Origin: Polyangiaceae bacterium
GTDB taxonomy: Bacteria > Myxococcota_A > Polyangia > Polyangiales > Polyangiaceae
Length of the DNA: 37,665 nucleotides
Reading direction: 5' to 3'
Assembly: GCA_025353725.1 (NCBI GenBank)
Contig: JANXOF010000067.1
Coordinates: forward strand, 1 to 37,665
Positions 10,392 to 36,580 of this stretch are shown one piece after another. Position 1 is the first letter of the stretch. Each line of letters starts with the position of its first letter. The notes beneath the pieces were generated by a model. It was not told the DNA's origin. It saw only the letters and a program-made list of their open reading frames with translations, and did not search any database. A program made the position numbers and the translations under genes.

Positions 10392-10754
10392 CTAAGCAAG
10401 TTTTTCGGGATAGGATGAAAGACCGATGCGTCGTCCGTCGGGGTCGCGGATGTAGATCGTAAATTCGGTCGAACCGTCGAGTTTAACTCCCGCATTCGTC
10501 AACCGTTGAACGTGTCGCGCACGGGAATGAGCGTCGACCGCGAAGGCGATAACTTCCATGGACGACGCGTCGAAGGAAGGCTCACTGTCGCCTTGTCGCT
10601 CAAGCATAAGGAGGGCCTTGCCGTCGTCGAGCGCGAGCCACACGCGACCACCCGGGTCAGCGCGGACTACCGTAAGACCCAGGGCCTGGACGTAAAAGCG
10701 CTCCAGGCTTTCGAGGTCGAGTGTCCTAAACGCCACATGATGAAAGCGCATCAA
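10392..10754 (-). CDS. VOC-family (glyoxalase/bleomycin-resistance fold) protein
   Basis: A 120-residue protein with the paired beta-alpha-beta-beta-beta modules of the vicinal oxygen chelate family: it opens FHHVAFRTLDLESLERFYVQ with the first metal-binding His, continues LGLTVVRADPGGRVWLALDDG, and the second module ends FTIYIRDPDGRRIGLSSYPE. Members are metal-dependent isomerases, dioxygenases or resistance proteins; the length fits a one-domain protein that works as a dimer. The second-module Glu in the usual Y-x-x-D-P-(D/E)-G-x-x-(I/V)-E-L context is replaced by Gly (RRIGLSS), so metal binding or catalysis may be altered. Substrate unknown. Confidence 0.88.
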   Translation of the reverse strand: MMRFHHVAFRTLDLESLERFYVQALGLTVVRADPGGRVWLALDDGKALLMLERQGDSEPSFDASSMEVIAFAVDAHSRARHVQRLTNAGVKLDGSTEFTIYIRDPDGRRIGLSSYPEKLA

Positions 10755-26268: not shown

Positions 26269-27048
26269 TTATTCGCCGGTGAACGACGCTTTTCTTTTTT
26301 CGAGAAACGCGGACATACCTTCCGAGCGATCCTTCGTGCCAAAGAGCACGCCGAAGGCCTGTGATTCGAGCGCGTTCGCCGTTTCGAGAGGCACGTCGGC
26401 GCCCGAAAAAAGCACGCGCTTGCACTGAGCGACTGCAAGTTGCCCTTTCGAAGCAATCTTCAGCGCAAGCTCTTTCACCGTCGCGAGAAGCTCCTCGTGC
26501 GGCACGACGCGGTTCACGAGCCCGAGGCGGTAGGCCTCTTCCGCCCCAACGATATCCCCCGAGTAGCAAAGCTCGCGAGCGCGCGCGATGCCCACGCGAC
26601 GAGCAAGCCGCTGCGTGCCGCCGAAGCCAGGCATGACGCCGAGGTTCACCTCGGGCTGGCCGAACTTTGCCTTGTCGCTCGCGTAGAGAAAATCGCACGC
26701 GAGCGCGAGCTCGCAGCCGCCACCGAGGGCAAACCCGTTGATCGCGCCGATGACCGGGAAAGGCGCTCTCTCGAGGCGAGAAAACACGCGCTGGCCCATC
26801 TCTGAAAACGCGCGCGCCTGCTCGGGGCTCATCGCCAGCATGGCTTGGATGTCGGCGCCGGCCGCGAATGCCTTTTCACCCGCTCCGGTCAAGACAGCGC
26901 ACGCGACTGTGCGGTCAGCGGCAAGCACATCGAGTGTCGCGCCGAGCGCGCGAAGGAGCTCGGCGTTGAGCGCGTTGAGCTTATCGGGGCGATTCAACCG
27001 CACCCATGCGACCGCGCCATCACGCTCACACAAAACGGTGGAACTCAT
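26269..27048 (-). CDS. Enoyl-CoA hydratase (crotonase)
   Basis: A 259-residue crotonase-fold enzyme that hydrates trans-2-enoyl-CoA to 3-hydroxyacyl-CoA in beta-oxidation or butyrate-type metabolism. Key regions: VAWVRLNRPDKLNALN, AFAAGADIQAML (oxyanion loop), FALGGGCELALACD with the first catalytic Glu, and FGQPEVNLGVMPGFGGTQRL with the second. Its ATG overlaps the TGA of the dehydrogenase gene by four bases (ATGA), so the pair is translationally coupled. The frame extends upstream to 27669, but the N-terminal block MSSTVLCERDGAVAWVRLNRP fixes the start at 27048. Confidence 0.93.
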   Translation of the reverse strand: MSSTVLCERDGAVAWVRLNRPDKLNALNAELLRALGATLDVLAADRTVACAVLTGAGEKAFAAGADIQAMLAMSPEQARAFSEMGQRVFSRLERAPFPVIGAINGFALGGGCELALACDFLYASDKAKFGQPEVNLGVMPGFGGTQRLARRVGIARARELCYSGDIVGAEEAYRLGLVNRVVPHEELLATVKELALKIASKGQLAVAQCKRVLFSGADVPLETANALESQAFGVLFGTKDRSEGMSAFLEKRKASFTGE

Positions 27049-27914
27049 GACTTCTTCACGCCGCCCTCGTAGACGTAAAACCCTCGTCCGCTCTTCTTCC
27101 CGACCCACCCGGCCGCGACGAAGTTCCGAAGCAACGTGGGCGCGCGGTACTTGCTGTCGCCGAGGTCTTTGTGGAGAACGTCGGCAATGGCCAACACGGT
27201 GTCGAGTCCGATGAGGTCGCACAACTCGAGCGGCCCCATCGGGTGGTTCAGTCCCAGTTTCGCTCCCGTGTCGATGTCCGCCGCCGTACCGACGCCCTCC
27301 TGAAGGGCAAAGCACGCCTCGCAAAGCATAGGAATGAGAATGCGGTTGACGAGAAAGCCTGGAGCGTCCCCGCTCACGGTCACGGTCTTGCCCATCTTCT
27401 CTGCGGCGGCACGCACCGCGAGGTAGGTCTCGTCGGACGTCTGCACGGCGCGCACGATCTCGACGAGCTTCATGAGCGGTGGCGGATTCATGAAATGCAT
27501 TCCAATGACCCGCTCCGGGCGCGTCGTGACGCCCGCAAGTCGGGTGAGCGAAATACTTGAAGTGTTGCTCGCGAGCAGCGCTCCCGGTTTCATCGCCTCG
27601 TCGCAGCCTCGAAAGAGCTTCAACTTGAGGTCGACGTTTTCGGTGGCCGCCTCGATGACCAGGTCGCACGCCGCGAACTCGGATACGCCCGAGGCGGCCG
27701 TAATCCGCCCGACGAGCGCGGATCGGTCGCCTTCGGCTAGCTTCCCTTTTTCGACCTGTTTGCCCAGAATTGCGTCGATTTTTGCGCGCCCTTTTTGAGC
27801 AAGCTCAAGAGAGGCATCAGCCAAAATCACGCTGTACCCAGCGGCTGCCGCGACTTGCGCTATCCCGCCGCCCATCTGCCCCGCACCGAGCACGCCTACC
27901 GTTCGAATATCCAT
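27045..27914 (-). CDS. 3-hydroxybutyryl-CoA / 3-hydroxyacyl-CoA dehydrogenase
   Basis: A 289-residue NAD-dependent enzyme that oxidises (S)-3-hydroxyacyl-CoA to 3-ketoacyl-CoA. VGVLGAGQMGGGIAQVAAAAG (about 6-26) is the NAD-binding loop. VIEAATENVDLKLKLF, LASNTSSISLTRLA, RVIGMHFMNPPPLMKLVEIV (catalytic His), PGFLVNRILIPML and KLGLNHPMGPLELCDLIGLD follow in family order. The start at 27914 is fixed by MDIRTVGV. Together with the crotonase it supplies two consecutive steps between enoyl-CoA and ketoacyl-CoA. No thiolase or acyl-CoA dehydrogenase is adjacent. The TPR lipoprotein starts only 39 bases away in the opposite direction. Confidence 0.94.
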   Translation of the reverse strand: MDIRTVGVLGAGQMGGGIAQVAAAAGYSVILADASLELAQKGRAKIDAILGKQVEKGKLAEGDRSALVGRITAASGVSEFAACDLVIEAATENVDLKLKLFRGCDEAMKPGALLASNTSSISLTRLAGVTTRPERVIGMHFMNPPPLMKLVEIVRAVQTSDETYLAVRAAAEKMGKTVTVSGDAPGFLVNRILIPMLCEACFALQEGVGTAADIDTGAKLGLNHPMGPLELCDLIGLDTVLAIADVLHKDLGDSKYRAPTLLRNFVAAGWVGKKSGRGFYVYEGGVKKS

Positions 27915-27953
27915 GTCTTGCTCCGACCTCGAAAGAGCTGCGATTCTTACCAC

Positions 27954-28778: not shown

Positions 28779-29045
28779 ATGACAGCCGAAAACAGGGCGA
28801 TGCGCGAGCTGCGTGAGATCTTCGTGGAACTTGACGCTCTCCTCAAAAACTCGGACGTGGGCGGCGAGCTTGCGTCACGCGGCGTCAACACGAGCCTCGC
28901 GATTGTGGCCGCTGACGCGCTCCGAGCTTACCTTGAGGGCGATCGAGAGCGCGCCGCTGAAGACTTCGACACTGTGGCCGAAGAGATCGCGACGCGCCTC
29001 CGGGCAAGTCAACGTGATCGCGGAGACAAGAACGGGATCTCCTGA
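28779..29045 (+). CDS. Small helical protein of unknown function
   Basis: An 88-residue soluble, mostly alpha-helical, acidic protein: MRELREIFVELDALLKNSD, ASRGVNTSLAIVAADALRAYL, and EGDRERAAEDFDTVAEEIATRL. There is no signal peptide or known motif. It is 9 bases downstream of the TPR lipoprotein and so likely in the same transcript. The amphipathic heptad pattern suggests a helical hairpin or bundle. Confidence 0.7.
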   Translation: MTAENRAMRELREIFVELDALLKNSDVGGELASRGVNTSLAIVAADALRAYLEGDRERAAEDFDTVAEEIATRLRASQRDRGDKNGIS

Positions 29046-29059
29046 ATTGGTTCGCGCTC

Positions 29060-29075
29060 AGCGCCAAGCGCTTTT
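29060..29075. terminator. Short hairpin with T run between convergent genes
   Basis: AGCGC-CAA-GCGCT followed by TTT lies between the small + gene and the CapA gene on the minus strand. The stem is only five pairs and the T run is short, so termination is plausible but weak. Confidence 0.35.
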
Positions 29076-30292
29076 CATAGGCATTCAGGGTTTGTGACCA
29101 AAGCCTCGTTTGGTTCAATCTTGTTCCATTTCCCTAAAAGGCTCGTGGTGAGCGCGAGGCTATCCCCGGTCGCTGGCTGAACGGTATAAGGCTTCGCCGC
29201 CATCGTGAGCGGCAGGTGGCGCACGCCGTTCACCGTGACCTTCCCGTCCGCCCCCTTCGTGAGGCCGACGTAAAGAATGAGTGATGAACGTTTTGCCGTT
29301 CCCGACTGACCACTCACGAAATTGCCGAGCGAATAGATTACAAATCCTTCGCGGCCGTCGTGTGTTGTGTACCGCTCCCAGGGTTGCACGACGTGTGGGT
29401 GGCCTCCGAGGACCGCGAGAGCCCCGGCCTCCAGCAGCTCATGAGCGAGACGCTTTTCACGTGCCTCGGGCTCGTGTTTGTATTCTACACCCCAGTGCGG
29501 CGTGACGATGACCGCGTCGATGTCACGCCTCGCGTTGAGGCTTCGAATCGTGGAAAGTAGCGTCTCTTTATCCTCATAGCAGTCGAGCACTTGGTGGCGT
29601 GGGTCCGGAATCTCGTTCGTCGAGAACGAACACGCGACCCACGCAACGTTGACGCCTTTGGCTTGGGTGGTCGTATACCAGGGAGCGTCGGGTGCCGTCG
29701 TGGAGCGCGTTCCCGTGAACGGCAGGCCAGCAGCCTTGAGGTTTTTGACCGTGCGGTCGACACCTAACGATCGCCTGTCGAGCGCGTGGTTATTCGCGGT
29801 CGATACGACGTCGAATCCGCTCTCTTTGAGGGCATCAATAACGGACGGATGATAGTTGAACTGCGGATATCCCGAATAGACTCGCCCATCAAACGTCTTG
29901 CCAGGGTCGGCAGCCTCGCCCGTGGCAGATACGCCGTCGGCACAAGGGCCTTCGAGGTTGCCGTAGGTCAAATCCGCGCGCGCGAGTAGCGGTTCCACGC
30001 CAGCCCACAAGCTATGGTGTCCCTCGGCCTCCGCAGAGGCTTGCTTCTGCAGGGGGCCGTGAAGAAGGACATCACCGACCGCCGCTATGGCGATTTTCGT
30101 TCCGGCGCGGCAAGCGTTGCTAAAACGAAGAGGGGCTGTCGCTGGAGTCGCAACGGCTTCCGTCGTCTCCGCCTCCCCCTCTTCGCTTTCGTCGAGGTCT
30201 GCACTCGTGCCGCAACCGGACGCGGCAAGAGTAAACGCCGCGAGGAGGCTAACGGCGCCAAAACGGAGGTAGCGATGTGTACGTGTAATCAT
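29075..30292 (-). CDS. CapA/PgsA-family metallophosphoesterase-fold lipoprotein
   Basis: A 405-residue lipoprotein. The leader FGAVSLLAAFTLAASGC gives the lipobox at Cys27. The mature domain is of the CapA type (PF09587), with IAAVGDVLLHGPL, TYGNLEGPCADG, VVSTANNHALDRRSLGVD, VIVTPHWGVEYKHEPE, LGGHPHVVQPWERY and YSLGNFVSGQ carrying the metal-binding residues. Family members take part in poly-gamma-glutamate or capsule synthesis or act as phosphoesterases; no pgsBC-like genes are here, so the reaction is open. It is last in a three-gene operon of lipoproteins, 41 bases after the protease gene. Confidence 0.9.
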   Translation of the reverse strand: MITRTHRYLRFGAVSLLAAFTLAASGCGTSADLDESEEGEAETTEAVATPATAPLRFSNACRAGTKIAIAAVGDVLLHGPLQKQASAEAEGHHSLWAGVEPLLARADLTYGNLEGPCADGVSATGEAADPGKTFDGRVYSGYPQFNYHPSVIDALKESGFDVVSTANNHALDRRSLGVDRTVKNLKAAGLPFTGTRSTTAPDAPWYTTTQAKGVNVAWVACSFSTNEIPDPRHQVLDCYEDKETLLSTIRSLNARRDIDAVIVTPHWGVEYKHEPEAREKRLAHELLEAGALAVLGGHPHVVQPWERYTTHDGREGFVIYSLGNFVSGQSGTAKRSSLILYVGLTKGADGKVTVNGVRHLPLTMAAKPYTVQPATGDSLALTTSLLGKWNKIEPNEALVTNPECL

Positions 30293-30333
30293 TGTCGTCC
30301 GGCGTGCTGGTCTGGGTTGAACGTTGGCGCGAG

Positions 30334-31290
30334 CTATCGCCCCGGTGGAGGGGATACCGTGGGCACGCCGAGCGCGCGAAGCCAGGAGGCCACGCCGTGC
30401 CGCGACCTCTCGTCGAGCCGCGTATGCCAGTTTGTCATGGGTAAGCCAACGCGGTCCTGCGCCTCTGGTCGAAGCGTGTAGTTTGCGTTAACGCCGACGA
30501 CGAGAAGCGCGCCGTCGCGCGCTGTTCGATAAAGCGGTCCGCCGGAGTCGCCGGGGCAGAGTCCAGCAAACGACGGGCTCGCGCCAGGTCCAGACGTGAG
30601 CGAGTACGTCGCAGAGACGCGTGGTAGGTCCGTCAAACGCAAGGGGCTGCCTTCGTGCAGTGCGCTTCGTGCCGGGATCGAGCGTGTTTCGGCAAACTTG
30701 AGCGTAGCCCGCGATCGCAAGTCGGTCGCAAGCACTCCCTGGGTACAGCCGAAGCCGGTAACGGTTACCGAATCTCCGTCGGCCAGCGGACGCGTGTCGA
30801 CGGATGCAACCGGTACGTTTTCGAGCTCGTTCGCCAGGTCGATGACGGCGACGTCCGCGGCGTCGAGCCTCGCGGTGACGGACGAGGCGCCACAATAGAA
30901 TTCGTCGCATGCTTTGGTCCATGCCGGGTGGACATGAATCGCTGCGATTTTGGGATATGCGTAGCCTTTGGCCGGTTCGCGCGCCACGGAGACGTTGCTG
31001 CCAATGGCAAAGAGGAACCGCAGGGTTGCCGGGTCAACGACGCAATGCGCCGCGAGCAGGAGACGCTTGGGCGCCACTTTCACAGCCGTGCACAGGCCGT
31101 CGATGTAGACCGTCGAAGCGAGCGCGGCTTCACCGGCGACGAAACCGCCGATAAGGGCGTCGCGGGTTTCACCCGTCGGGGCTTGCCCACCAAGGCTGTC
31201 CGCCTCCGAAGAAGCCCGCTCGGAAGCGCCGCAGGCGAGGCTCATGCTCAACGCCGCGCTGAAGACTGTGAGACTCAGACGGCGTTGCAT
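30334..31290 (-). CDS. Trypsin-like serine protease lipoprotein
   Basis: A 318-residue S1-family protease. The leader LTVFSAALSMSLACGAS gives a lipobox at Cys20, followed by a Ser/Ala/Glu linker and the activation-like IGGF at about 47-50. The triad is present: His82 (LLLAAHC), Asp146 (DAADVAVIDL) and Ser249 (CPGDSGGPL). Cys pairs (CDEFYC, GFGC, LCPG) probably form disulfides. It is the middle gene of the operon: the deacetylase gene ends 5 bases before its start and CapA begins 41 bases after its stop. It is a different subtype from the protease at 20362. Confidence 0.92.
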   Translation of the reverse strand: MQRRLSLTVFSAALSMSLACGASERASSEADSLGGQAPTGETRDALIGGFVAGEAALASTVYIDGLCTAVKVAPKRLLLAAHCVVDPATLRFLFAIGSNVSVAREPAKGYAYPKIAAIHVHPAWTKACDEFYCGASSVTARLDAADVAVIDLANELENVPVASVDTRPLADGDSVTVTGFGCTQGVLATDLRSRATLKFAETRSIPARSALHEGSPLRLTDLPRVSATYSLTSGPGASPSFAGLCPGDSGGPLYRTARDGALLVVGVNANYTLRPEAQDRVGLPMTNWHTRLDERSRHGVASWLRALGVPTVSPPPGR

Positions 31291-31295
31291 GGCGA

Positions 31296-32468
31296 CTACT
31301 CTTCGTGTGCGGCAGCGACGTCACCGACGAGTCCGGCCGCCTCGCGCTGAGAGACTGGAATGGCCGGCTCGACGGGCGTAGCGGCCGCAATTCCGGGTGG
31401 GCGAGGCAGCGGCGCGAAGGCACTTGCTTGATAGCTGGCCCGATCGCTGGCGTGGCTCTCCATAAACTTTGCGAGTTCTCCATACGTCACGCACTTGACC
31501 TCGGGTAGACCGCAAACCTTCTTTGTAAAGGCTTGCATCGCCTCCCAATAGGCACCCCCATTCCATTTTGAGAAGTGGTGCCCAATGTGTACGGGGGCTC
31601 GGTTTCCGAAATAATTGTTCTGAAAGTACTGCATGTACGTGTCCAGTGTTTCCTTCTTGTACGTCTCCTTGTTTTCCGGCTTGGGTTCCCCTTTCGAGTG
31701 GGCGTAGTAAAAGTTGTAATCCATCGACAGCGTGTGCTTGCCTGAGCCTACGATTCGAAGTTCGGCGAGCGGAAAGTTCCATATCCCGTCTTGCTTCTCC
31801 GGCCAGTAATTCGCTTCGCCGCTTTTGCTCGTATCATACGAGAACTGTTTCTTTTTTAGCGTCTTGAACATCCCGGAGCTAAATCCGAGCAGGGGCGCCC
31901 GAAACCCTTTGACCTTCTCGATGCCGAAGCCGAGGTTGACGTGCGGAACCCCGGCTGTTTCTGCGGCATTGAAGATGAGCTTGTCGAATTGCTCGAACTC
32001 GTCGTCCCACTCCGCTTCGCTCCATGCCGAGCCGTCGAAGTGCCCATTCGCGTGAGACGCAATTTCATGTCCCTCTGCGTAGGCCTGCCGAACATGATTG
32101 AGGCGCACGCCGATGTTGGCCGCGGGACCACCGAATCCGATATCGGAATGGCCGGCCGCGTGACGCGGTCCGTGGTAAAGTGCCTTCTTCGCTTCGGGGA
32201 GAAAGTATGCGCCGCTCGCGAAGTAGGTGAACTTAGCGCCCGTCTGTTGCGCGAAGGTTCGTGACTCTTGCCAAAAATCGAGGTTGAGAGAACCGTCGAA
32301 GGCGAGCATGACGAACTGGGGCGGCCTTTGTGTGGTGGCCGCTGTCGCTCCCTCCTCGGCGGGATCCGCGCCGTCGCCAGTGTGTCCGCCGCTGCAGCCG
32401 AGGGCGGTCATTGTGCCTAAGGCGAGAGCGAAGGGCGCGATGTGGCGGAAGAGGCGATGCGTATTCAT
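31296..32468 (-). CDS. Polysaccharide deacetylase-family lipoprotein
   Basis: A 390-residue lipoprotein with a NodB-type deacetylase domain. The ATG at 32468 has GGAG 6 bases upstream and gives FRHIAPFALALGTMTALGC, a lipobox at about Cys25. Motif 1 is FVMLAFDGSLN, a variant of the TFDDG motif with one Asp replaced. Motif 2 is HEIASHANGHFDG (H-x3-H metal site). Motif 3 is KGFRAPLLGF (R-x-P). Near the end PVHIGHHFSKWNGG supplies the last His. The variant motif 1 and long inserts mark a subfamily whose substrate is unknown, perhaps a cell-wall or extracellular polysaccharide. The C-terminal tail is Ala/Pro-rich. It heads the three-lipoprotein operon. Confidence 0.88.
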   Translation of the reverse strand: MNTHRLFRHIAPFALALGTMTALGCSGGHTGDGADPAEEGATAATTQRPPQFVMLAFDGSLNLDFWQESRTFAQQTGAKFTYFASGAYFLPEAKKALYHGPRHAAGHSDIGFGGPAANIGVRLNHVRQAYAEGHEIASHANGHFDGSAWSEAEWDDEFEQFDKLIFNAAETAGVPHVNLGFGIEKVKGFRAPLLGFSSGMFKTLKKKQFSYDTSKSGEANYWPEKQDGIWNFPLAELRIVGSGKHTLSMDYNFYYAHSKGEPKPENKETYKKETLDTYMQYFQNNYFGNRAPVHIGHHFSKWNGGAYWEAMQAFTKKVCGLPEVKCVTYGELAKFMESHASDRASYQASAFAPLPRPPGIAAATPVEPAIPVSQREAAGLVGDVAAAHEE

Positions 32469-32780
32469 TTCTGCTCCGAGTCGTCGGTTGGGGTGTGCCC
32501 ACGAATGAGCACAAGGTGTGCCGGGTGCGTGTCGTGTAAGTTCAATGACTTGGAGCCTCGCCTGGGCACAGGAAGCGGAAACCGACGGGCCGCTGATCCA
32601 CCAGGCCCGCTTCTTTCCGAAGCCGACGGAAGCGCCCGACCGGCAGGTCTGCCGGACGTTGGGTGTGCAGCCGCGCGCTGACCTTTTGAACGACCGAGCG
32701 CTTTTACCTTCCACCCGCTGCTGCACGTGACGCTCACTGCGACGGAGGAAGAACGTCGCGAAACGCGATACGCTAGCGAG
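32469..32780. other. 312-base intergenic region with a hairpin
   Basis: I see no gene here. Promoters for the minus-strand lipoprotein operon and the + strand PilZ gene should lie here. One clear hairpin, CCGGCA-GGTC-TGCCGG, is at 32640-32655. A GTG at 32727 would extend the PilZ gene by 18 residues that look unlike the family. Confidence 0.5.
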
Positions 32781-33137
32781 GTGAAGGACAAGCGTGCGTT
32801 TCACCGTGTGCGTCCTGGCGCCAAGTCGCCCGTCGATCTTCAGTTGATGGGCGACGGATTTCTGGAGGGGCGGCGCGCGCACGATATCAGCGAGGGCGGC
32901 GTTGCCATCTACGTTCCTCATAATTTCGACGGCTGCGAACTGAGCGGTGCGGTCGATCTTCTTATTACGTTAGGTAAAGAGCGTCCGTTTATCGTCCGCG
33001 CGGTGATAAGGCATCTCTCCAAAGGAGACGGCTACTTCGGTGTTGAATTTACGCAAATTTCAGACGAAGCTCGCGCGAAGATTCGCACGTACGTCGAGCA
33101 GCGCATGCGTGAACGTGGGCTTCTCTCGTCGCGCTGA
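32781..33137 (+). CDS. PilZ-domain c-di-GMP-binding protein
   Basis: A 118-residue single-domain PilZ protein. Counting from the GTG at 32781, the binding signature R-x3-R is at residues 5-9 (RAFHR), D-x-S-x-x-G is at 35-40 (DISEGG), followed by the beta-strands GVAIYV, SGAVDLLITL, FIVRAVIRHL and GYFGVEFTQI. The domain binds the second messenger c-di-GMP and passes the signal to a partner; stand-alone PilZ proteins in myxobacteria bear on motility and polysaccharide export. GTG at 32727 is the alternative start. It is not obviously coupled to lipA, which starts 366 bases further on. Confidence 0.9.
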   Translation: MKDKRAFHRVRPGAKSPVDLQLMGDGFLEGRRAHDISEGGVAIYVPHNFDGCELSGAVDLLITLGKERPFIVRAVIRHLSKGDGYFGVEFTQISDEARAKIRTYVEQRMRERGLLSSR

Positions 33138-33503
33138 GCCTGTTAGGCGACGGGCTCGGCTGACGAACGGACTTGACCGGTCTTGCCGTGCGTGCGCTAC
33201 CGACAATGACTTTGAGCCACCGTTCCGCGCAGCGAAACTTTAATCCAGCCAGACGCTTGGGTCTCACTGACGACGAGCGAAAGCGCATTGGCGACAACTC
33301 CGAGTACTGCGCTGGACTCTGTTCCCTCGGTACGGAGATTGATGGCGGACGCCGAGCTGGGCCCGAGCGCGACAGGGCTCGACGCGTTGACGGTAGCGCC
33401 CTCGACACACAGAGCCTCCAAGTCTGACCGAAGTAGCGTGCCGCGGACGGGGGCCGAAGCGTGCGTCGTTGACCGTGGTGTGCGGTGACGCTACGTCCGC
33501 GAG
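33138..33503. other. 366-base region between PilZ and lipA
   Basis: No firm gene. The minus strand holds a 74-residue frame with natural-looking composition (listed separately with low confidence). No terminator-like hairpin with a T run and no riboswitch is apparent. GAGG immediately precedes the lipA GTG at 33504. Confidence 0.5.
33197..33421 (-). CDS. Possible small protein or gene remnant
   Basis: A 74-residue frame from a TTG: it opens LEALCVEGATVNASSPVALG and ends WIKVSLRGTVAQSHCR. The composition (Ala, Val, Ser, Leu, Gly) and third-base G/C look like coding sequence, and the frame stays open about 20 codons upstream of the TTG. There is no ribosome site, motif or neighbour support. 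It may be an eroded gene end or chance, since GC-rich DNA makes many such frames. Confidence 0.25.
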   Translation of the reverse strand: MEALCVEGATVNASSPVALGPSSASAINLRTEGTESSAVLGVVANALSLVVSETQASGWIKVSLRGTVAQSHCR

Positions 33504-34595
33504 GTGAGCATCCCCGTCGCTCCTCCTCAGCCGCCAAGCCCGACCGTCTCTCGCTTTGATCCCAAGCCATCGTGGCTGAAGGTCCGAATGCCAGGCGGCG
33601 ACACGTACAATCACCTCAAGCAAACGTTCCGCGAGCTCGACCTTCACACGGTCTGTGAAGAGGCACGCTGCCCGAACGTGGGGGAGTGCTGGACGGAGGG
33701 GACGGCCACCGTGATGCTGCTCGGCGACGTCTGCACGCGGGGCTGCCGCTTTTGCGCGGTGACGACGGGCAATCCGCGAGGCGCTGTCGACGGACGCGAG
33801 CCCGAACACGTGGCGCGAGCGCTCGCACGACTTGGCCTTCAATACGTCGTCCTCACGATGGTCGACCGCGATGATCTCCTCGACGGCGGCGCCTCCCACG
33901 TTTCGCGTACGGTGACGCGTCTTCGCGAGCTTCGTCCAGATATTCTTGTCGAAACGCTGCTTGGCGACTTCGGCGGTCACATGGATTACGTCGATGTCAC
34001 GGTCGACGCGAAGCCTCACGTGTGGGCGCACAACATCGAAGTCGTGGCGCGCCTTCAGCGCACGATCCGCGACGTCCGCTGCAGCTATGAAAAATCGCTC
34101 GGGGTCCTCGCACGCGTCAAGGCGCGCGACCCTGAGTGCGTGACAAAGTCCTCGATTATGGTCGGTATCGGAGAGTGCGACGAGGAAGTCCTCGAGACGC
34201 TGGCGGATCTTCGCAGCGCGGGAGTCGACATCGTGACGCTCGGCCAGTACCTGCGCCCGACGCCGAAACACGCGGCGGTGGATCGTTACGTGACGCCCGC
34301 CACGTTCGACGCGTTTGCTGACGCCGCGCGGAACATGGGGTTTGCTTACGTCGCGAGCGGCCCGCTTGTCCGCAGCTCTTACAAAGCGGCCGAAGTTTAC
34401 GTGCGAAGTATCCTCCGCCCGGGTGATCCGGCGGCAGCCGACGCGCTGATCAAGGAACGACTTGCCGAGGCCAAGCGAGCCGCGCGCGTGGTCGACGGCG
34501 AGGTGGTGGCAGGTTCGGTCACGACAAGCGAGTTTGCGGCACGTACGGCTGCGACTTTGCTTCCTGCCGCGAGTCTCGTCCGCAGAGCTCCGTAG
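33504..34595 (+). CDS. lipA: Lipoyl synthase
   Basis: A 363-residue radical-SAM enzyme that inserts two sulfurs into protein-bound octanoate to make lipoyl groups for pyruvate and 2-oxoglutarate dehydrogenases and the glycine cleavage system. The auxiliary cluster motif C-x4-C-x5-C is Cys51, Cys56 and Cys62 (CEEARCPNVGEC). The radical-SAM motif C-x3-C-x2-C is Cys77, Cys81 and Cys84 (CTRGCRFC). The C-terminal RSSY motif that supplies a Ser ligand to the auxiliary cluster is present (VRSSYKAAE). The C-terminal extension past about residue 315 is longer than in E. coli LipA. GTG start with GAGG directly before. No lipB in the window. Confidence 0.96.
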   Translation: MSIPVAPPQPPSPTVSRFDPKPSWLKVRMPGGDTYNHLKQTFRELDLHTVCEEARCPNVGECWTEGTATVMLLGDVCTRGCRFCAVTTGNPRGAVDGREPEHVARALARLGLQYVVLTMVDRDDLLDGGASHVSRTVTRLRELRPDILVETLLGDFGGHMDYVDVTVDAKPHVWAHNIEVVARLQRTIRDVRCSYEKSLGVLARVKARDPECVTKSSIMVGIGECDEEVLETLADLRSAGVDIVTLGQYLRPTPKHAAVDRYVTPATFDAFADAARNMGFAYVASGPLVRSSYKAAEVYVRSILRPGDPAAADALIKERLAEAKRAARVVDGEVVAGSVTTSEFAARTAATLLPAASLVRRAP

Positions 34596-34753
34596 GTTCT
34601 CGGGCGGCCCTTTCGTTTTTGGTGAGCTTTCGTCTTCCACGCAGGCCTCGAAGCCACGAAACGTTCCAAGGGCCGCGGGTCTTGTGCGCTTCCACCGGGC
34701 GAACGTGCTTAGCTTTCGAAGGCCGGCGCGGTGGAGCCGTCCAGGGAGAGCCG

Positions 34754-36580
34754 ATGAGCAAGCGCGTCATTCCGTGGATTCTGTCCTCAAGAACTCTGTG
34801 CACCTTGGCGTCGGTGGGGACGCTCACAGCCCTCGAATGCGCTGCGTGGGCGGGGCCTCGCGTCGAAGGTCCAAGAGGCCGTATAGAGGTCAACTTCGTC
34901 GAAAAAACTGAGGCGGCGGGCGACTTTTTTGCCTTTGACCCGAAGTTTACGACCGTCGACGCCGAACTCGAAAACGAGCTTGTCGTCGACTTGAACGATG
35001 ACCTCGGAGATGACGCTATCCGGGCTCTCGGCGCTGAGTATCAGGTCGATCTCCGCGACAACTCACCGGGAGTGAAGCACGACGGTAACCTCGCCATAGC
35101 CAGGGTCAGCCCTGAGAGCGCCGCGGATCTCATGGTCCGCCTCGAACATGATGCGCGGGTCGAAGGAGTTGAACGGCAAGCGGTAGCGCGCGCGTTTTTT
35201 ACGCCGAATGACCCGAAGTACACCGAGCAGTGGCACATGAAGCGAGCCGGCGCCGAGAAGGCTTGGGACTACGGCTGCGGTGCCGGCGTGACGGTCGCTA
35301 TCGTGGACACGGGGATCGCTTGCTACGACGACGGCGGGTTCATGAAGGGCTCAGACCTCCAAGGCACGGCGTGCGTCGGGGGCTACAACTTCGTCGGTAA
35401 AAACGAAATCGCCGCCGACGACCAAGGGCACGGTACGCACGTCGCGGGCACCATTGCTCAAACAACCCACAACGGCGTGGGCGTCGCAGGTCTCGCCCAT
35501 TGCGCGAAGTTGATGCCGGTCAAGGTGCTCTCCAAAGGAGGGTGGGGGACGATGGCTGATGTCGCGGAGGGCATCCGCTGGGCCGCCGATCACGGCGCGC
35601 AAGTCATCAATCTCTCGCTCGGCTCTTCCGCAAAGAGCAAGGTTGTCGAGAGCGCGGTCACGTACGCCTACAAGAAGGGCGTCGTCGTCGTGGCGGCCGC
35701 AGGCAACTCGGGAAAGTCCGTGGGCTACCCAGCGGCTTATCCGGGCGCCATCGCCGTGAGTGCGACCGATAAAAACGACGCCATCGCGTGGTTTTCGTCC
35801 CGTGGACCCGAGGTGGCTATCGGCGCGCCCGGCGTGGGCGTGACGCAGCAAACAATATGCGAAGAGGGCAAAAACAGGTGTGAGCAGTGGGGCGTCTTCA
35901 ACGGTACGAGCATGGCCGCTCCGCACGTGGCCGGAGCCGCCGCGATTCTCGTGGGGCAGGGGGTTACGGATCCCGAAGCGGTAAAGGCGATTCTGCAGGC
36001 TTCAGCGACGCCGAAAGAGGAGAAAGAACTCTTCGGCGCGGGCATTTTAGAGGCAGGCAAAGCCTCGATGCAGACACATTGGGCGCACCTCGGCGTTCGT
36101 GTCGCGGCGCTGCTCGCTCTCTCGTTCATCGTTGCCCGCCGTATCAAGCGGAAGGGAGGCGTTCTCGAACGTGGACAAGGAAAGTGGTTCGGTGCGCTCT
36201 TTGCCAGTCTCGGGTTGCTGCCGTTTCTCCCTGCGCTCGGGGTTCCTGCGCGTCTCGGTGCTCTGCGGTGGGTCGCCGAACTCGCGATGAGGCCCCTGGG
36301 TGAATGGGATCTCCTGCTCGATGCGGGAGCTCACCGGTGGCTGCTTCTCGCGAGTGCGCTTCCCGCGTTCGGGTTGACGGCGTTCTTCTTCAACCACAAG
36401 CGGCTTCGCCCGTTCGTGGGCGGTGTTGCGCTCGGTAGCGCGGCGCTCCTCGTTCAACTCGGCGTGAGCGGCGAGACCTTTTTCGCGCTCGGGTCGTTTG
36501 GCCTTCGGGTTTTCTGTGTCGCCAACGTGGCGGCTTGCCTTTGGGTGGCGCGCATGAGCCTCGACGCCAAGCGCGCGTAG
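34754..36580 (+). CDS. Membrane-anchored subtilisin-like protease (S8 family)
   Basis: A 608-residue protein. The ATG at 34754 (GGGAGAG upstream) starts a signal-like N-terminus (VIPWILSSRTLCTLASVGTLTALECAAWAG). Residues about 65-148 look like an inhibitor-type propeptide. The S8 catalytic domain has Asp185 (VAIVDTG), His226 (GHGTHVAG), the oxyanion Asn318 (AAAGNSG) and Ser386 (NGTSMAAPHVAG). From about 445 to the end there are four or five hydrophobic helices, starting with HLGVRVAALLALSFIVARRIK followed by basic residues, so the protease domain probably faces the periplasm and stays tethered in the inner membrane. That C-terminal module is unusual for subtilisins. The role may be surface or periplasmic processing. 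Confidence 0.9.
   Translation: MSKRVIPWILSSRTLCTLASVGTLTALECAAWAGPRVEGPRGRIEVNFVEKTEAAGDFFAFDPKFTTVDAELENELVVDLNDDLGDDAIRALGAEYQVDLRDNSPGVKHDGNLAIARVSPESAADLMVRLEHDARVEGVERQAVARAFFTPNDPKYTEQWHMKRAGAEKAWDYGCGAGVTVAIVDTGIACYDDGGFMKGSDLQGTACVGGYNFVGKNEIAADDQGHGTHVAGTIAQTTHNGVGVAGLAHCAKLMPVKVLSKGGWGTMADVAEGIRWAADHGAQVINLSLGSSAKSKVVESAVTYAYKKGVVVVAAAGNSGKSVGYPAAYPGAIAVSATDKNDAIAWFSSRGPEVAIGAPGVGVTQQTICEEGKNRCEQWGVFNGTSMAAPHVAGAAAILVGQGVTDPEAVKAILQASATPKEEKELFGAGILEAGKASMQTHWAHLGVRVAALLALSFIVARRIKRKGGVLERGQGKWFGALFASLGLLPFLPALGVPARLGALRWVAELAMRPLGEWDLLLDAGAHRWLLLASALPAFGLTAFFFNHKRLRPFVGGVALGSAALLVQLGVSGETFFALGSFGLRVFCVANVAACLWVARMSLDAKRA

Follow-up and report, generated by a model that had tools for sequence, protein, structure and literature searches.

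Do three adjoining genes of a Polyangiaceae bacterium form one enzymatic unit, or does the run combine a smaller conserved unit with an incidental neighbor? The genes lie on contig JANXOF010000067.1 (GenBank assembly GCA_025353725.1), of which we analyzed a stretch of 37,665 nucleotides, here called the window. An earlier note, made from the sequence alone, had described an operon of three lipoproteins at positions 29075-32468, namely a polysaccharide deacetylase, a trypsin-like protease, and a CapA-like enzyme. Comparison with relatives points to a two-gene unit of a deacetylase-like and an S1 protease lipoprotein, presumably anchored in the envelope and probably translationally coupled, with CapA as a separate, incidental neighbor, a reading that we hold with middling confidence.

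Three tandem genes and the deacetylase-protease pair

31296 to 32468, minus strand: polysaccharide-deacetylase-like putative lipoprotein of 390 residues, first gene of the pair (PF01522, alignment, AlphaFold2 model, and structure match)
30334 to 31290, minus strand: S1 (trypsin-type) serine protease of 318 residues with His82, Asp146, and Ser249, second gene of the pair (PF00089)
29075 to 30292, minus strand: CapA-like (PGA_cap) putative lipoprotein of 405 residues, which adjoins the pair in the window's genome only, among the genomes compared (PF09587)

The coordinates of the open reading frames (ORFs) bear out the described arrangement of three tandem genes on the minus strand, separated by 5 and 41 bases. 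Their products match three different hydrolase-like families, as had been proposed. Called mechanically, the deacetylase ORF extends in frame to 32921, corresponding to 541 residues; we chose the ATG at 32468 by eye because a signal-peptide-like stretch follows it. Each product has a lipobox-like cysteine; those of the deacetylase-like protein (ALGC, Cys25) and CapA (ASGC, Cys27) fit our search pattern, and that of the protease (SLAC, Cys20) lies outside it. Judged by eye, the related proteases of genomes G220, G219, G224, and G181 also carry a cysteine after a hydrophobic start. The start of the G225 protease was not readable; in that assembly, the gene appears frameshifted at its start (stretch L038, near 10440-10600). 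The G+C content of the block (0.59-0.64, inside the window range of 0.577-0.677) and a promoter scan of the window (0 found against 0.6 expected in shuffled sequences) were uninformative, and no tRNA was found within the window.

We searched for the three genes in samples of increasing breadth. The genus sample comprised 12 draft genomes, some with more than 800 contigs, in which absence from the assembly does not equal absence from the cell. Six of them carry the deacetylase gene, eight carry CapA, and four carry both (G000, which is the window's genome, G220, G223, and G225). A matching S1 protease gene lies directly downstream of the deacetylase gene in five of the six genus members possessing the latter (the window, G225, G220, G219, and G224), at spacings of -4 in G220, +1 in G219, +13 in G224, and +5 in the window. 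With the genes this close together, translation of the two may be coupled and the proteins made in similar amounts. In G181, which belongs to another genus, the gene at +5 encodes a trypsin-family, lipoprotein-like protein (49.8 bits). By a rough estimate, which uses preliminary, unconfirmed counts of S1 genes and assumes 1.1 kb per gene, chance alone would place an S1 gene next on the same strand about 0.2-0.3% of the time.

Among 183 genomes of the order, including that of the window, 13 matched the deacetylase, 24 the protease (many of these being paralogues elsewhere), and 14 CapA, at E-value limits of 1e-15, 1e-15, and 1e-60, respectively. In a class sample of 116 genomes, for which only three genus members, counting the window's, were drawn, the matches numbered 2, 1, and 14 in the same order, each at its own E-value limit. 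The deacetylase alignment matched 7 of 377 genomes in a phylum sample (E-value limit of 1e-30, window's genome counted), all from one class. Outside this group, no protease match stood beside a deacetylase gene at an E-value of 1e-3 in stretches L029-L037, and no S1 gene was seen among the scanned or annotated deacetylase neighbors, although a divergent one might have escaped notice.

Surroundings were compared with a crude in-house gene caller and clustering. G220 and G224 have several flanking genes in common and G225 has two clusters in common with them, and none of these flanking clusters occurs in G219, G181, or the window. This brings the distinct surroundings of the pair to at least three, rather than five. 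For the pair, this count, together with the adjacency in five of six genus members and the near-zero spacing, speaks against chance neighbors devoid of any functional link, an explanation that the position of CapA and the variability of the site described below would fit, as would descent of the pair at one place in G220, G224, and G225. We regard chance as improbable.

Several observations weigh against a conserved pair. Because of their common flanks, G220, G224, and G225 may hold one inherited place and would therefore not be independent cases. G225 has an ATG at +1, yet its protease frame seems broken at the start, which leaves the spacing unclear. The G181 protease barely resembles that of the window (BLASTP E-value of 4e-4; its best match, at 5e-7, is to another protease of the set). 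The deacetylase genes of G223 and of four g109 genomes are followed by other genes and lack an adjoining protease, and in a deacetylase tree two of the g109 copies group with that of G220 (98/98). This grouping is the only one on which we lean, in view of the 10 open branches among the 17 inner ones of the tree and of its two very long rows; the grouping of G224 with G181 (93/92) was not starred. The contig of G164 ends shortly after its deacetylase gene.

The CapA gene and the replaced site

CapA covers the whole PGA_cap domain (PF09587, 220.1 bits against a cut-off of 27) and matches 8gq9, named a poly-gamma-glutamate synthesis protein, at an E-value of 1.4e-9. In both respects it resembles the CapA/PGA_cap proteins (PgsA/CapA; MslH), but it scores only 54 of the 700 bits needed for the lasso-peptide epimerase MslH equivalog NF038314, and CapB and CapC were not found on the window's contig.

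The three-gene order that the earlier note proposed to look for in other genomes is conserved for the deacetylase and the protease and not for CapA. Among the four genus members with both genes, CapA adjoins the deacetylase gene only in the window. The two genes lie on different contigs in G225, G220, G223, and G181, and four of the eight CapA-bearing genus members (G218, G221, G222, and G226) have no deacetylase match. The window's CapA had no match (E-value of 1e-12) in 11 deacetylase stretches from relatives, some spanning only 7-10 kb, and neither its deacetylase nor its protease had a match (E-value of 1e-12) in 12 stretches around CapA matches. The surroundings of CapA are common to stretches L057 and L058, and likewise to L060, L061, and L062, which fits an older place of CapA separate from the pair and would make its arrival in the window the later change. 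On this synteny we rejected a conserved three-gene unit. Among the paper titles listed by our literature searches, none describes the combination.

One might still suppose a true three-gene operon acting on one surface polymer, from which the relatives lost or scattered CapA. All three genes are on the same strand and have signal-peptide-like starts, the gap before CapA is 41 bases, and a simple scan found no minus-strand terminator-like site between protease and CapA (6 sites in total against 5.4 in shuffled sequences). Set against the single adjacency, the CapA genes without a deacetylase match, and the common CapA surroundings, these features leave such an operon rather unlikely.

The genomic site of the block was compared with that of relatives. 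The features bordering and filling the site besides the three genes are as follows.

28779 to 29045, plus strand: small ORF of 88 residues, left edge of the replaced interval, with a match in eight of the ten relatives read there (site comparison)
32727 to 33137, plus strand: PilZ-domain gene within the replaced interval (family scan)
33504 to 34595, plus strand: lipoyl-synthase-like gene (LIAS_N, radical SAM), right edge of the interval, with a match in all 12 genus genomes (family scan and genome search)

The gene at 27045-27953, which we take to be 3-hydroxybutyryl-CoA-dehydrogenase-like, is, like the lipoyl synthase gene, present in all 12 genus genomes. Between these two markers, the ten relatives carry an MtnA-type gene (8 of 10; the name comes from NCBIfam for one relative, L093) and another lipoprotein-like gene (7 of 10). 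The window has neither and holds CapA, the protease, the deacetylase, and PilZ at that site. In G061 and G111, which are the smallest genomes, it contains hardly anything; in G223, the markers fall on separate contigs, and the site was not read. The PilZ gene had no match (E-value of 1e-3) across the 33 stretches from relatives. The interval from the 88-residue ORF to lipoyl synthase (28779-33504 in the window; compared with L093-L102) is variable in the genus and locally replaced in the window, and its replacement in the window's lineage would have landed CapA beside the pair. After the lipoyl synthase gene follows a subtilase (S8) gene at 34619-36580, with a match in all ten genus relatives read there.

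Poly-glutamate, which the earlier note had listed among possible target polymers, is a weak candidate. A whole-genome search for CapC yielded two PF14102 matches within one open frame on contig C33 (80.3 and 57.9 bits, cut-off 27). PgsB-like matches appeared about 11 kb from CapC on C33 (212 bits, under the cut-off of 222.7) and on C74 (17.4 bits); the window's contig, C46, gave no match to the CapC and PgsB models. In a control of 14 genomes, PF14102 matched Bacillus subtilis only, and the PgsB model matched eight genomes, one of them above the cut-off. The C33 CapC protein reached 52.2 of the 96.45 bits needed in NCBIfam. At the C33 locus, PGA_cap was absent from the 12 ORFs scanned with Pfam, some of which overlap and which are a subset of the ORFs there; the 1,355-residue ORF spanning the PgsB-like match had no Pfam match at an E-value of 0.001, and tblastn with the window's CapA returned chance-level matches only. 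C33 may harbor a locus of the poly-glutamate type, whose scanned ORFs include no CapA, and the window's CapA could possibly act there in trans. Poly-glutamate synthesis by the window locus itself is not supported, as the CapC- and PgsB-like matches are confined to C33 and C74. The PgsB-like match and the 947-residue ORF with the two CapC matches lie on one strand of C33:165251-178584 (L116, L119), separated by very long ORFs.

A NodB-fold subfamily without the metal-binding aspartate

The Pfam match of the deacetylase-like protein is weak (PF01522, 22.8 bits, 0.3 under the curated cut-off of 23.1), yet its family assignment is firm by the predicted fold. An AlphaFold2 model built from 10 sequences, with a mean predicted local distance difference test score (pLDDT) of 73.4 and a predicted template modeling score of 0.76, contains the NodB fold and aligns with the insect chitin deacetylase 5z34 over 244 residues (Z of 22.2, r.m.s.d. 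of 2.8). The top eight structural matches (5z34, 3rxz, 3qbu, 5zns, 5znt, 1z7a, 3s6o, and 3cl6) have Z values of 20.1-22.2, after which the ninth, 3lm3, drops to 17.4; 5zns and 5znt have an identical protein sequence. Excerpts of PMC10967932 assign 3RXZ, 3QBU, 1Z7A, 3S6O, and the insect chitin deacetylases 5Z34 and 5ZNT to subclass NodB1.2, whose motifs are only marginally kept, and place 3CL6, the PuuE allantoinase, close to it. The window protein has its nearest folds in and beside this subclass, but stands apart from it by a lipoprotein-like start, a motif 1 without the metal-binding aspartate, a flexible tail, and the adjoining S1 gene. It has a motif 1 lacking the metal-coordinating aspartate in common with the MurNAc deacetylases of the BsPdaA type (excerpts of PMC5855634), but fits their fold more poorly (1w17, Z of 14.6). 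Judged by its sequence, the window protein is a CE4-like relative, not a canonical CE4 enzyme.

32289 to 32300, minus strand: motif 1 FDGS, residues 57-60, with the base Asp58 present and Gly at the position of the metal-binding Asp (alignment of 20 rows; roles as given in excerpts of PMC5855634)
31299 to 31328, minus strand: C-terminal tail VGDVAAAHEE, residues 381-390, of low model confidence (AlphaFold2 model; post hoc tail count)

We aligned the window protein with 19 relatives from genomes of the window's order and class (presumably Polyangia-type), Okeania, Oligoflexia, an alphaproteobacterium, rhizobia, and Streptomyces. The alignment excludes the g109 copies L019 and L020, the fragment L028, the Okeania copies L032, L033, L034, and L037, and L027, a remote relative with 23-26% identity; of 81 plasmid records, it includes four. 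The residue following the base aspartate of motif 1 is Gly in 19 of the 20 rows and Ser in one, and never the metal-binding Asp. D58, H139, H143, R190, D212, and H298 are invariant in all rows, the last three being assigned to motifs 3, 4, and 5 by position and eye. The subfamily thereby keeps the base and both histidines of the His-His-Asp triad without its aspartate. The variant first motif reported earlier is real, but FDGS is a subfamily trait in this alignment, and a peculiarity of the window gene is ruled out.

In other genomic settings, namely the Sinorhizobium and Rhizobium plasmids L103, L105, and L106, the deacetylase relative is flanked by an NnrU-family gene on one side and bacA/sbmA on the other, with the order unchanged among the three. 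Upstream of an Okeania relative, four tandem ORFs of 175-184 residues occupy L030 5013-10840, two of which were scanned and match DUF29; HIRAN- and HipA-like ORFs lie downstream of it on the opposite strand.

Without one of its metal ligands, the protein may no longer be catalytic, which also counts against an enzymatic pair. The deacetylase-like protein might be catalytically dead and serve as a glycan-binding or wall-stabilizing lipoprotein that positions the protease. Precedents for inactivity are at hand: the available text of PMC5855634 describes BA0150 as metal-free and presumed inactive, and that of PMC4505593 reports the CE4-type lipoproteins BA0330 and BA0331 as devoid of deacetylase activity and as stabilizing the wall. 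Against a dead enzyme stand the motif residues kept invariant across far-diverged relatives. According to the same parts of PMC5855634, the base is the leading Asp of motif 1, and metal is bound by the one after it, which MurNAc deacetylases lack as well; therefore, motif 1 by itself does not tell active from inactive proteins. Moreover, PuuE allantoinase is described as metal-independent in the excerpts of PMC10967932. On balance, we consider a dead enzyme unlikely, albeit a serious contender.

The partner protease carries a trypsin domain (PF00089, 43.6 bits against a cut-off of 20.6) with H82, D146, S249, and GDSGGP in place, as read and numbered by eye. It resembles the S1 (chymotrypsin/trypsin) serine proteases in these features, but differs in its lipobox-like start and its weak matches to solved enzymes (best E-value of 6e-4); a model from the single sequence had a pLDDT of 31 and was not used. 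The tail of the deacetylase-like protein is a conceivable substrate. Within their last 25 residues, all six protease-linked proteins have a His with D, E, or N right after it, versus 2 of 21 others, a post hoc count confounded by descent. It leaves room for a protease acting on its partner, and a self-processing unit, in which cleavage of the His-containing tail or tether would activate the partner or release it from the membrane, is a distant prospect in our estimation.

As for the favored pair of deacetylase-like protein and protease, the two genes would be cotranscribed and both products exported and lipidated, their similar signal starts suggesting a common destination. The substrate of the deacetylase-like protein would be a glycan or an amide, with Asp58 serving as the base and two histidines forming a site devoid of the usual Asp ligand. 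At the same place, the protease would cleave the protein part of a matrix or the flexible tail of its partner. The pair may thus constitute a surface unit working on the cell's own matrix or on prey material, one partner acting on glycan or amide groups, the other on peptide bonds.

What had appeared to be a three-enzyme pathway is corrected to a two-gene unit and a likely incidental neighbor. The deacetylase-like protein represents a NodB-fold subfamily, present in distant bacteria, without the metal ligand thought standard for this enzyme class, and through the adjoining protease, the way in which NodB-fold proteins lacking that ligand may work can be put to a concrete test.

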